Position numbers and translations under genes: made by a program
Shown: positions 23,788-30,604 of the stretch, piece after piece
Layout: each line of letters starts with the position of its first letter
Numbering within the stretch: position 1 is the first letter of the stretch
The notes under the pieces: generated by a model
What the model was told of the DNA's origin: nothing
The model's input: only the letters and a program-made list of their open reading frames with translations
Databases searched by the model: none
NCBI GenBank assembly: GCA_031279155.1
Contig: JAITJB010000221.1
Coordinates: 1-34,379 of the forward strand
Length of the DNA stretch: 34,379 nt
From: Deltaproteobacteria bacterium
GTDB taxonomy: Bacteria > Desulfobacterota > Desulfarculia > Adiutricales > Adiutricaceae
Direction of reading: 5' to 3'

Positions 23788-24738
23788 TTAAACTGGAAAT
23801 CTCTCGCTCAAAGCCACCAAGCGCTCATAGTCTTGGTTGACCCGGTTAGTTATCGTGCTAATATCGTCTTCCTTAAGGTGCCGGAAGCGACCTTGGATTT
23901 TAAAGTATTCCGAAATAGGCGTGGGATTATCGACCTTACGGTTGATGACGTAGTTACCGTCAATGACCTCATAGAGAGGGAAAATGCGGGTAGCTACGGC
24001 CAGTTTACCGCTTTCTATGGCCAATTCCGGTTTCATGCGCCAGCCCGTGGGGCAGGGCGCGTAGACGTGGAGATAGGCTGGACCTTTGATGGCTACGGCC
24101 CGGCGGATCTTATTCATCAGATCGAGATGGAAGGCCGGGTTAGCTGTGGCCACATAGGGCACCCCATGGGCGGCGGCGATGGCCGGCATGTTCTTCTTCC
24201 AGGTGTATTGACCCTTGGAATGGGAGCCGACCGGGGAGGTGGTGGTGTTGGCGCCAAAGGGCGTAGATGAGCTCCTTTGGATACCGGTATTCATGTAAGC
24301 CTCGTTATCGAGGCAGACGTAGACGAAGTTCTCGTGATAACGCTCCAAGGCCCCGGAGAGGGCTTGAAGGCCGATATCAGCCGTACCACCGTCGCCGGCT
24401 ACGGCCACCACCGGGATCCTCTGATCGTAGCCGCGCCCCTTGCGCCTTAAAACGTGAGTGGCCGCTTCAACCCCTGAGGCCACGGCGGCGGCGTTTTCAA
24501 AAGCCACGTGGATCCAGGGCATGCGCCAAGCCGACTGCGGGAAAGGTCCAGTACACACTTCCATACAGCCGGTGGCCGAAACAGCGATAAACTCGGTGCC
24601 TAGGGATTTAAGTAAAAGCCTTAAGGCCAAAACTTCACCGCACCCCTGACAGGCCCGATGACCTGGCGCCAGAGAATCCGGCCCTTTAGGAAAGTTTTTA
24701 GCGGTTACCTTTTCAAACGGTACATCAGCGGCTCTCAT
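23788..24738 (-). CDS. porB: Pyruvate:ferredoxin oxidoreductase beta subunit (2-oxoacid family)
   Basis: GHRACQGCGEVLALRLLLKSLG; TPP motif VAVAGDGGTADIGLQALSGALERYHENFVYVCLDNEAYMNTGIQRSSSTPFGA. ATG at 24738 overlaps the porA stop by 4 nt. Confidence 0.93.
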   Translation of the reverse strand: MRAADVPFEKVTAKNFPKGPDSLAPGHRACQGCGEVLALRLLLKSLGTEFIAVSATGCMEVCTGPFPQSAWRMPWIHVAFENAAAVASGVEAATHVLRRKGRGYDQRIPVVAVAGDGGTADIGLQALSGALERYHENFVYVCLDNEAYMNTGIQRSSSTPFGANTTTSPVGSHSKGQYTWKKNMPAIAAAHGVPYVATANPAFHLDLMNKIRRAVAIKGPAYLHVYAPCPTGWRMKPELAIESGKLAVATRIFPLYEVIDGNYVINRKVDNPTPISEYFKIQGRFRHLKEDDISTITNRVNQDYERLVALSERFPV

Positions 24739-25901
24739 TCGTACACCCCCACGATTTCGCAACGGACTTGGGCCTCACCGGAGGCAGCCTGGTCAAATAT
24801 ATATCTAAATTCTTCGCGCGTTACGTCACGACCGCCCAAGCCCAACACGTAGTTGGTGACCTTGGGATTTAATTGGGAGCCGTAGAGTAGCGACTTGATC
24901 TCCATGCCCACCGCGCTGGTATCGCTGCCTAAGACCACGTGACGGTCGACGACGGCCACGTTTTTAGCCTTTGATAAGGCGGCTAGAAGTTCGGTCCTGG
25001 GAAATGGTCTCCAGAGCCTTATCCTGACTAAACCGACTTTTTTACCTTCAGCCCGAAGTTCGTCTACCGTGGTCATAGCCGTTTCAGCAATGGACCCCAT
25101 GAGGACGATAACCGTCTCAGCGTCTTCGATACAGTAGGTTTCCACCACCTGGTATTTACGGCCAAAGACTTTATCGAACTCGTCAAAAGCCTTTTTAATT
25201 ACAGGAACTGACGCTTCCAAGATGTCATCAGCCGCCTTACGGGATTCGGTGTAGCATTCCGGGCCGCCTAATAAGCCAATGGAGATGGGATTTTTGATAT
25301 CCAACTGAAGGCTGGGCTTATAGGGGGGCAGAAATTTATCGACCTCTTGTTGATCCGGAATAATGATGGGCTCAATGAAGTGGGAGAGGGTAAAACCGTC
25401 TAGGTTAACGTTAACCGGGAGGCTGACAGCGGGATCTTCGCCAATTCTAAAAGCTAAGAGCGTAAGATCTAAAGCTTCCTGGCCGTTTTCGGCAAACAAG
25501 CTGATCCAGCCAGCGTCGCGGACGCTCATGATGTCGGAGTGATCGTTCCAGATGTTAATGGGCGCGCTTAAGGCCCGGTTGGCAATGGCCAAGACGATAG
25601 GGGTCCTTAGGATGGGCGCGATATAGATCATCTCGTTCATCAAGGCTAGGCCTTGAGAACTGGTAGCCGTAAAGGTCCGGGCCCCGGCAGCCGAGCTGCC
25701 GATGCAAGAGCTCATGGCTGAGTGCTCGCTTTCCACCGGGATATAGGCGGCGTCTAAGCTGCCGTCAGCTACTAGTTCGGAGAGGTGCTCAACGATGTGA
25801 GTTTGAGGCGTGATAGGATAGGCGGCGATAACGTCGGTGTTAGCTAGCTTTACAGCTTCCGAGACAGCCAGTGAGACTTCAATACCAATTCTTTTACCCA
25901 T
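24735..25901 (-). CDS. porA: Pyruvate:ferredoxin oxidoreductase alpha subunit
   Basis: MGKRIGIEVSLAVSEAVKLANTDVIAAYPITPQTHIVEHLSELVADG...VESEHSAMSSCIGSSAAGARTFTATSSQGLALM. Confidence 0.93.
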   Translation of the reverse strand: MGKRIGIEVSLAVSEAVKLANTDVIAAYPITPQTHIVEHLSELVADGSLDAAYIPVESEHSAMSSCIGSSAAGARTFTATSSQGLALMNEMIYIAPILRTPIVLAIANRALSAPINIWNDHSDIMSVRDAGWISLFAENGQEALDLTLLAFRIGEDPAVSLPVNVNLDGFTLSHFIEPIIIPDQQEVDKFLPPYKPSLQLDIKNPISIGLLGGPECYTESRKAADDILEASVPVIKKAFDEFDKVFGRKYQVVETYCIEDAETVIVLMGSIAETAMTTVDELRAEGKKVGLVRIRLWRPFPRTELLAALSKAKNVAVVDRHVVLGSDTSAVGMEIKSLLYGSQLNPKVTNYVLGLGGRDVTREEFRYIFDQAASGEAQVRCEIVGVYE

Positions 25902-25903
25902 AA

Positions 25904-26206
25904 TCACACCTCCTCCAAGGTCATAGTTATGGCCTTCTTGGGGCACTCCTGAGCGCAAATCCCACAGCCCTTGCAGAAATTGAGGTCCACTTTATACCAT
26001 TTCTCATCTTTCCCCATGTCCTCATAGGTGCCATCGGGGCAGTAATAGTAACAGAAACCACAATAAACGCACTTTTCTTTGTCGAGGACCGGGCGGACCG
26101 AACGCCAGTCACCGGTTTTAAATGCAACCGTGCTGCCAGGTTGAGCTGTAAAGCCCAAAGGCAGATCGCCGGCCTTTTGCACTCCTTCGGATTTGGGCTT
26201 TTTCAT
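25904..26206 (-). CDS. porD: Pyruvate:ferredoxin oxidoreductase delta (2x[4Fe-4S] ferredoxin) subunit
   Basis: CVYCGFCYYYCPDGTYEDMGKDEKWYKVDLNFCKGCGICAQECPKKAI. Confidence 0.94.
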   Translation of the reverse strand: MKKPKSEGVQKAGDLPLGFTAQPGSTVAFKTGDWRSVRPVLDKEKCVYCGFCYYYCPDGTYEDMGKDEKWYKVDLNFCKGCGICAQECPKKAITMTLEEV

Positions 26207-26784
26207 AACTCGGCCTCCACTTTTGTCTCGTCATAAGCCTTTTTAAAGGCATCTAAGTTTTTCGGGGCCAAAGAGGGCCCGAAACGGTGATTGAAGGGTT
26301 CGACAACGTCGGCCGGCGTAGCTTGCCCGAGAGCCTTAGAAAAAGCCCCCAACATAACGGTGTTGGTTATGGGTACCTTGAGGATTTCTAGGGCAATACT
26401 CATAGCGTCGATGGTGGCGATTTTCTGCTTGAAGCCGTAGACTTTCCTGAGCTGCTCCACCGGATGGGTGGTGTTGATCAGTAGGATCCCGTCTTCCTTC
26501 AGACCTTGGTCGACCTTAGTCACGTTCATGACGGTCGGATCTAAAACCACGACCACATGAGGACTGTAGACCTTCTCCCTAATACGGATGGGATGATCAC
26601 TAATCCTCAAAAAGGCGGTAACAGGCGCGCCGCGCCTCTCCGGGCCGAAACTTGGGAAGGCCTGAGCGTATTTACCCTGGCTGATAGCTGTTTGGGCCAT
26701 CAACTCAGCTGAGGTAACTGCCCCCTGCCCCCCGCGGCCGTGAAACCTTGTTTCGATCATAAAATTCTCCACGTAACTTGCCAT
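26203..26784 (-). CDS. porC: Pyruvate:ferredoxin oxidoreductase gamma subunit
   Basis: MIETRFHGRGGQGAVTSAELMAQTAISQGKYAQAFPSFGPERRGAPVTAFLRIS; overlaps porD by 4 nt. Confidence 0.93.
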   Translation of the reverse strand: MASYVENFMIETRFHGRGGQGAVTSAELMAQTAISQGKYAQAFPSFGPERRGAPVTAFLRISDHPIRIREKVYSPHVVVVLDPTVMNVTKVDQGLKEDGILLINTTHPVEQLRKVYGFKQKIATIDAMSIALEILKVPITNTVMLGAFSKALGQATPADVVEPFNHRFGPSLAPKNLDAFKKAYDETKVEAEL

Positions 26785-28295: not shown

Positions 28296-29054
28296 ATGGT
28301 TAAGCAGAAACAAACTCACCAAACCGATAGTTTGGAAAAACTCCTCATCTACCTCTTAGGGGTCGCCCCCCATGAGTTTGGCCTTTTGCCGGACGCTAAC
28401 GGCTATATCTCTCTAAAAGAGGTCATAGCCGCCATCAAAGGCGAAGAGGGCTTCGGCGGGGTTTCTTCTGGCCGCATTACCGAGATCTGCCAGCGCCCAG
28501 GCCAATTATCAAAGCTTGAGATCTTAGATGGGAGGATCCGGCTTAAGCCTGAAATCCCCCTAAGCCCCAAGGAAGATGATTCTGTAGAACCTCAAATTAA
28601 GCCTAAAATTCTCTTTTTGGCTCTTAAGCCTTCGGTCTGGGCTCACGCTTTTACCTACGGTCTGGACCCCAAGCCCGGGGAGCCAGCTATCAGGTTATTT
28701 ACCGATAAACAGACCGCCCTTAAGGTGGCCTCCCGCTTCTGCCCGGACCCTGTAACCATAACCGTCCAAGTGCGAGCCGCCGAAAACGAGGGAGCTAGGC
28801 TCAACTATTACGCCGGCCAGATGTATACCGCCGAACATCTTAACCCCAATTGGCTCTCAGGTCCACCCATCGCCCCTAGGGAGGAAAAATCCCCGGCCAA
28901 AAATAAGGCCGACGATCTGCCGGGGGCCAGTAGTTCTCTTTTTGTTGAAAGCTTAGCCAACCAAAATAAGCCAGACAATAAGCGCACAAAAAAGAACAAA
29001 TACCAAGACTCCCCGGACTGGAAGACCAGAACGCGCCGCGAGCGCCGCAAATAA
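28296..29054 (+). CDS. KptA/Tpt1 (RNA 2'-phosphotransferase)-like protein, divergent active site, basic C-terminal tail
   Basis: LEKLLIYLLGVAPHEFGLLPDANGYISLKEVIAAIKGEEGF (KptA N-terminal domain-like); LEILDGRIRLKPE; LFLALKPSVWAHAFTYGLDPKPGEPAIRLFTDKQTALKVASRF (KptA C-terminal domain-like). Confidence 0.7.
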   Translation: MVKQKQTHQTDSLEKLLIYLLGVAPHEFGLLPDANGYISLKEVIAAIKGEEGFGGVSSGRITEICQRPGQLSKLEILDGRIRLKPEIPLSPKEDDSVEPQIKPKILFLALKPSVWAHAFTYGLDPKPGEPAIRLFTDKQTALKVASRFCPDPVTITVQVRAAENEGARLNYYAGQMYTAEHLNPNWLSGPPIAPREEKSPAKNKADDLPGASSSLFVESLANQNKPDNKRTKKNKYQDSPDWKTRTRRERRK

Positions 29055-29152: not shown

Positions 29153-30604
29153 CTAAGCTACGACTGACACCATGTTGCGGCCCGATTGCTTGGACTTATA
29201 GAGGGCTTGATCGGCCCTAGCCAAAATCGAGGTCGGGGTATCGCCCTTAACCACTTCGCTGACGCCTAGGGAAATGGTCACCGGGATGGTCGTATCGCTA
29301 TTTTGATTAACTTGAAACTCCACCACCTCAATTTGACGGCGAAGTTTATCCGCCACCTTGACCGTGTCCCTTAAATTGGCTTCCGGCAAGATTACTATAA
29401 ACTCATCGCCGCCATAGCGGAAAATGAAGTCATCGCTCCTTAAAGCTTCCCTGACCAACCTGGCCACGTGGCATAAGATGCCGTCGCCGGCCAGGTGGCC
29501 AAAATTATTATTAACATCGCGGAAATTATCAATATCAAAAATAATAAGACCAAAGGTTAGTAAGCCGCCTTTGGCAAAATTGTTTAGGGTCAAGGCAATC
29601 TGCTCATCGTAGGCCCGCCGATTATAAACTTGGGTCAAGGAGTCGCGCAGGGAGATCATCTTAATGGCCTCCAGCTCGTGGAGGGCCGAGTGACTCTGGC
29701 AGACAAAGGAGTTGTAATCGCGGCGGACAGATTCTAGGGAGTTTTCAAGCCTCTTTTTTTCAACATCGAGTTCGCCCAATCTAATTTCGTCATCTTGGTT
29801 CTTTTTGGAAATAGCCGCAAAAATGTTATCGAGCTTTTCATTGATAACCATGATCAAACTGTCAGGATCGCTACCATTGACGTCGGTTACGGTCGATCGA
29901 ATATCGGTGAGATCCGAGGTCAATCCCTGGCAAAAACTGCGGTTTTCCTTATCAAAATAGTTTATAGAGCGATCCAAAAACTTAGTGTACTCTTTTTCGG
30001 TGAAGATCAAAGTTCGGATGATCGAGGTCAACCTAAAGGAAATCTTTCCCAATTCATTGCCGTAGTCCCTTAAAAACCTCGAACAAATATCGACTAAAAC
30101 CGGTAAAAAATTTTCTAGCGAGGCCCCGATATCCATCAGGTGCCTTAAGACCTGCCCTGAGCGCTGGTAGCGGTTGTGCTTAAACTTCTCAAGTTTGTCG
30201 GCCAGTCCCCGGATGACCTCCTTGAGGTTAAGTTCCTCGTGCTCAGTTAATGCTGGCCCTTCGAGGTTCCAAGTCGTGACCGTTTTACCGCCGCTATTTA
30301 ACTTGGCAATGGCCTGGACGGCCTGCTCAACTAATTCCAAATAACCCGTGTCGGTTCCCAGCTGAACTTCCAACTGCTTAAGATGGTTGACCAGATCGTT
30401 ATTAAAGCCCCTCTGCCGCAAGATGGTCGAGGTCGCCCGAAGGACAAGCCTCATGGCTTGGACAAAGTCTATGCGTTCGAGCTCCATAATCTGGAGCCTA
30501 CGTTCGGCAGCCAAGAACTTTAATTTCAGAGCGTCGGTATTATCCAGACTTAGTTCATCTTTGGCTTCCACGAAAGAACCTGCCCAATTTTTTTTGTCAT
30601 CCAC
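29153..30604 (-). CDS. GGDEF-domain diguanylate cyclase with a helical N-terminal region
   Basis: DSLTQVYNRRAYDEQIAL; RSDDFIFRYGGDEFIVILPEA (intact GGDEF and an RxxD I-site-like motif); SLGVSEVVKGDTPTSILARADQALYKSKQSGRN. Confidence 0.95.
   Translation of the reverse strand: MDDKKNWAGSFVEAKDELSLDNTDALKLKFLAAERRLQIMELERIDFVQAMRLVLRATSTILRQRGFNNDLVNHLKQLEVQLGTDTGYLELVEQAVQAIAKLNSGGKTVTTWNLEGPALTEHEELNLKEVIRGLADKLEKFKHNRYQRSGQVLRHLMDIGASLENFLPVLVDICSRFLRDYGNELGKISFRLTSIIRTLIFTEKEYTKFLDRSINYFDKENRSFCQGLTSDLTDIRSTVTDVNGSDPDSLIMVINEKLDNIFAAISKKNQDDEIRLGELDVEKKRLENSLESVRRDYNSFVCQSHSALHELEAIKMISLRDSLTQVYNRRAYDEQIALTLNNFAKGGLLTFGLIIFDIDNFRDVNNNFGHLAGDGILCHVARLVREALRSDDFIFRYGGDEFIVILPEANLRDTVKVADKLRRQIEVVEFQVNQNSDTTIPVTISLGVSEVVKGDTPTSILARADQALYKSKQSGRNMVSVVA

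Follow-up and report, generated by a model that had tools for sequence, protein, structure and literature searches.

The closest described relatives of the protein considered here are the Tpt1/KptA enzymes (CthTpt1, 6E3A/6EDE; TkoKptA; E. coli KptA), which are built from a winged-helix RNA lobe and an ADP-ribosyltransferase (ART) lobe. In CthTpt1 the tetrad of Arg18, His19, Arg68 and Arg121 is described as essential both in vivo and in vitro; Arg68 contacts the 2′-phosphate, the HGT motif at residues 101-103 holds the adenosine ribose of NAD, and the NAD phosphates are caged by Arg121, Arg139 (which contacts them) and Arg140 (PMC6333775). In RslTpt1, alanine at the position equivalent to Arg18 slows step 1 380-fold and step 2 710-fold, and the upkeep of KptA in bacteria lacking a yeast-type RNA ligase is described as a long-standing riddle (PMC6333775).

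We have analysed a gene related to these enzymes in a 34,379-nucleotide stretch of DNA (the window), which belongs to a draft genome of 2.89 Mb in 339 contigs. The nearest named relatives of this genome are 'Deltaproteobacteria' metagenome bins, a Candidatus Adiutrix bin and the complete Deltaproteobacteria bacterium Smac51 genome (CP026657.1), all of which we take to be termite-gut Desulfobacterota. On one side the gene has a divergent AAA-ATPase-like neighbour and on the other a convergent GGDEF gene (Table 1). AAA-ATPase-like (PF09820) proteins are usually longer than 296 aa, and this neighbour may be truncated. The GGDEF gene recurs as a neighbour in about a dozen genomes, mainly of the window's own bacterial family, and the 2-oxoacid:ferredoxin oxidoreductase (POR) cluster in about ten genomes of that family; since no neighbour family occurs at more than 14 of 101 loci, and none is common across the phylum, no partner can be inferred from gene order.

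Table 1. Features of the locus, in window coordinates
Feature	Position	Strand	Basis
POR-type oxidoreductase cluster	23788-26784	-	Neighbour conserved within the window's bacterial family
AAA-ATPase-like gene, 296 aa	27206-28096	-	PF09820, E=1.8e-42
Candidate KptA/Tpt1-derived pseudoenzyme, whole coding sequence, 252 aa	28296-29054	+	Profile searches, PDB match, Foldseek
N-terminal winged-helix (RNA) lobe, about residues 1-90	28296-28565	+	AF2 model, CthTpt1 alignment; boundary taken from CthTpt1 (PMC6333775)
Gly22-Val23, replacing catalytic Arg18-His19 (RHxP motif)	28359-28364	+	Profile alignment, hmmalign
Lys41, family-specific near-invariant RNA-lobe residue	28416-28418	+	Member alignment
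Arg82, equivalent of CthTpt1 Arg68, kept (112/116 members)	28539-28541	+	Profile alignment
C-terminal ADP-ribosyltransferase-like (NAD) lobe, about residues 101-188	28596-28859	+	Profile alignment, AF2, Foldseek
Leu108-Ala109-Leu110, replacing NAD-binding HGT	28617-28625	+	Profile alignment, hmmalign
Gly128-Glu129, loop at expected position of tetrad Arg121, lost	28677-28682	+	Placement approximate, loop one residue longer
Arg133, replacing His125 (HLS motif)	28692-28694	+	Profile alignment, hmmalign
Arg147, equivalent of NAD-phosphate Arg139, kept (111/116 members)	28734-28736	+	Profile alignment
Basic, mostly disordered tail, residues 193-252	28872-29051	+	AF2, composition
Predicted terminal basic helix, residues 241-251, with WKxxxRxxR motif	29016-29048	+	AF2, family alignment
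GGDEF protein gene	29153-30604	-	Neighbour conserved within the window's bacterial family

A sequence-only reading of this DNA had picked out the open reading frame, which is present as described, and had proposed that both halves of its product resemble KptA. This is borne out, with homology covering both lobes. The NCBIfam model NF002013 matches residues 8-188 (E=1.4e-11; 44.2 bits against a curated threshold of 231), Pfam PF01885 taken by itself stays under its cutoff (15.9 against 26 bits), the best PDB sequence match is the Tpt1 structure 9ld3 (E=1.1e-7), and a family profile of 27 sequences matches CthTpt1 (6ede) at E=1.1e-44. The AF2 model (pLDDT 85) is confident in both lobes and low in the inter-lobe linker and the middle of the tail, and its significant Foldseek matches are all Tpt1/KptA (E=3e-12), giving the Tpt1 fold of winged-helix and ART lobes. 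Superposition of the model on Tpt1 at an rmsd of about 9-11 Å might be taken as a re-orientation of the lobes, but the control model of an active-site-complete relative (L033) that is 44% identical to CthTpt1 has an equally odd inter-lobe geometry, and we have therefore disregarded this as a modelling artefact.

The catalytic positions were mapped on CthTpt1 by family-profile alignment and hmmalign, the alignment being collinear across residues 11-183. The mapping agrees with the earlier proposal that the RHxP-like motif has lost its Arg and His, that the HGT segment has been replaced and that the HVHL-like segment is altered; His125 is changed and Arg121 lost (Table 1). Within the KptA fold, then, just one of the four tetrad positions is recovered, Arg82. 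The earlier view that nothing but the IR of GRIRLKP seems kept holds for the tetrad and fails for the NAD site, where Arg147 has also been retained; it is the sole survivor of the Arg121/139/140 cage, Arg140 being replaced by Phe148. Judged by these residues, the protein is apparently not a functional KptA.

We have compared 116 distinct members of the family, with eight canonical KptA proteins for reference. Arg18 is kept in 13 of the 116 members, His125 in 16 and His101 in 19. We refer to the 12 members that keep Arg18, His19, Arg68, His101 and His125 as complete and to the other 104 as dead, a classification by residue identity. Nearly all of the dead members lack HGT, His125 and Arg121; the equivalents of Arg68 and Arg139, the tail motif and Lys41 show conservation in both groups, Lys41 being lysine in 100 of 104 dead and all 12 complete members and in one of the eight canonical proteins. 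L050 (from genome G089 of family f33) and its relatives in G125, G159 and G281 are extremely divergent and come from small genomes; in L050 not even Arg68 and Arg139 are aligned.

Conservation of this kind bears on what the remnant site might do. It could be that the protein is a neofunctionalised ADP-ribosyltransferase, as the earlier reading had also suggested, or another nucleotide-using enzyme, with its active site rearranged around Arg82 and Arg147. An ART-like lobe is predicted with high confidence, both arginines are near-invariant, and Arg140 is kept in 54 of the 103 members without Arg18; because Arg140 or Arg139 is still present in most dead members, there is room for nucleotide binding. 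However, the ART-lobe columns that are at least 75% conserved in the dead clade contain no new Glu, His or Asp, and with HGT, His125 and Arg121 gone from nearly all of them the NAD pocket has been dismantled, which makes this explanation unlikely. Slightly less probable still is that the protein is a reader and not an eraser, binding 2′-phosphorylated or ADP-ribosylated RNA without processing it. Arg82 and Arg147 correspond to residues that contact the 2′-phosphate and the NAD phosphates (PMC6333775), and archaeal tRNA is known to be 2′-phosphorylated, while some bacteria have active homologues of ArkI (PMC9095486), but the remaining phosphate-binding residues Arg18, His19 and Arg121 have been lost. 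Retention of the two arginines could also be a purely structural matter. A genuine KptA of low activity, whose residual function depends on substitutions elsewhere, would account for the retention of the overall fold and Arg82, but we consider it very improbable given that three residues of an essential tetrad (PMC6333775), along with HGT, are missing.

The Lys/Arg-rich tail noted earlier is indeed basic, although its length is nearer 60 than 80 residues. Residues 193-252 include 17 Lys/Arg (pI 10.2), of which 13 fall in the last 28 residues (pI 11.1). Such a tail is common to dead members and active-site-complete relatives: W[KR] occurs within the last 45 residues of 102 of the 116 members, the last 35 residues carry a median net charge of +8, and the median length is 251 aa, versus 182-193 aa in seven of the eight canonical, plasmid-borne KptA proteins; the eighth, archaeal, is 227 aa. 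A profile of 22 tails finds no homologue in the PDB, its one match being uL2 at E=4.7, and it lends no support to a resemblance to SmpB-type tails, which we had considered. Four members of one bacterial family, f43 (L122, L124, L129 and L147), have a basic tail with RYARKK in place of the WK motif. An otherwise disordered linker also carries a short PG[ST]F-like motif (residues 209-210 of the window protein and their equivalents) in dead and complete members, with the G217 column conserved in 85 of 104 and 9 of 12 respectively; it may be a docking motif.

A tree built without the catalytic columns and without the tail separates the 116 members from the eight canonical proteins with 100/99 support, a monophyly that is relative to this small canonical sample. 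The conserved, catalytically dead clade that the sequence-only reading had suggested looking for is present, with about 100 dead rows, the window protein among them, grouped at moderate support (84/79). The dead state requires four changes on the tree, and a single clade of all dead rows is rejected (p-AU 0.0036, for a group named after the first tree and before the AU test), from which it follows that catalysis has been lost at least twice. Two members (L111 and L121), from the same bacterial family (f16) as the complete member L033, have lost Arg18 (to Gln and Leu) and keep HGT and His125; these intermediates are apparently early stages of independent active-site loss. Within family f43, L147 has undergone its own, independent loss of Arg18 and HGT. 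The earlier reading had catalysis lost and a tail gained, an order that is probably wrong: because complete members carry the basic tail too, the tail is most simply the older, and it probably arose before the loss of catalysis, with the caveat that the basic tails of family f43 lack the W.

Homologues are present in 64 of 98 relatives of the source genome, in all genomes at least 90% complete of the window's own bacterial family, and in about a third (135 of 395) of genomes sampled across Desulfobacterota, nearly always as a single copy and with homology reaching into the tail. A PF01885 search of 96 relatives revealed no additional canonical KptA. The protein has no match in either the plasmid or the phage collection, and a plasmid or phage origin is therefore unsupported. 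The distribution over 41 bacterial families needs 41 changes on the tree, where the minimum is 40, and inheritance is thus essentially vertical. Nei-Gojobori dN/dS values range from 0.08 to 0.48 over 15 pairs, which include 13 comparisons of one dead copy with another and of which the more distant approach saturation at synonymous sites; the gene is under purifying selection in the pairs tested even where the catalytic residues have been lost. The idea of a decaying gene without function, which the loss of the active site might suggest, is contradicted by dN/dS values that stay well under 1 in every pair, by a reading frame that is open in nearly all of the listed relatives and by the presence of the gene throughout the near-complete genomes of its family, and we regard it as hardly credible.

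The loss of nearly all of the active site while the gene and its basic tail are kept suggests retention for a non-catalytic job, which is probably RNA binding. The reading that we favour, with some confidence, is accordingly close to the pseudoenzyme first proposed: an RNA-binding protein derived from KptA/Tpt1. Its status as a pseudoenzyme is well supported by sequence: three-quarters of the tetrad and HGT are gone, about 100 relatives that are inherited vertically and under purifying selection show losses of the same kind, and the sampled genomes yielded no second KptA. Binding of RNA or nucleotide is a reasonable inference from the La-like winged-helix lobe, the basic tail and the retained phosphate-contacting arginines, and we infer that the protein can no longer use NAD. 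We suggest that an ancestral Desulfobacterota KptA was still active when it gained its basic tail, which in most cases has a WKxxxRxxR helix at the end; that a binding role assumed by this tail together with the winged-helix lobe made NAD-dependent phosphotransfer dispensable; and that loss of the catalytic centre followed on at least two occasions, in the large clade to which the window protein belongs and in small side branches. The ligand would be a phosphate-rich structured RNA, most likely tRNA or rRNA, contacted by the winged-helix lobe (Lys41, Arg82), by what is left of the phosphate site (Arg82, Arg147) and by the terminal basic helix, and the protein would serve as a chaperone or adaptor for RNA, without catalysis. 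Whether this widespread family represents at least two independent conversions of KptA into a factor that binds RNA without catalysis and has a core role in the cell, selection having kept binding by the RNA lobe and tail and not the 2′-phosphotransferase chemistry, is a broader proposition that we consider evenly balanced.

In the open-access PMC literature, where work on Tpt1/KptA deals with active enzymes, with viral copies and with RNA ADP-ribosylation, we found no description of a catalytically dead KptA or of a dead, tailed clade; the automatic name 'RNA 2′-phosphotransferase' is probably wrong for most members in Desulfobacterota. Like the described Tpt1/KptA enzymes, the window protein has two lobes and keeps the equivalents of Arg68 and Arg139, but it has lost Arg18, His19, Arg121, HGT, His125 and Arg140, and the canonical proteins of 182-193 aa lack its tail of about 60 residues. 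The next Foldseek matches after Tpt1 are La-motif (LaM) winged helices such as that of LARP1, which resemble the N-terminal lobe weakly (probability up to 0.98, E about 0.1) and bind RNA without catalysis, as is proposed here; they have no ART lobe, and the likeness is one of fold. Closest of all are the tailed complete KptA proteins of other Desulfobacterota (the L033, L043 and L095 type), which share the clade, Lys41, Arg68, Arg139 and, in most, the tail motif, but differ in keeping HGT (A-T in three) as well as all four residues of the Arg-His-Arg-Arg tetrad, from which we would expect them to be probably active. Desulfobacterota thus offer a lineage that has retained the KptA gene though its chemistry is apparently gone, with tailed complete relatives still extant, and comparison of dead with complete tailed members separates a binding role from a catalytic one and makes the riddle of KptA upkeep testable.
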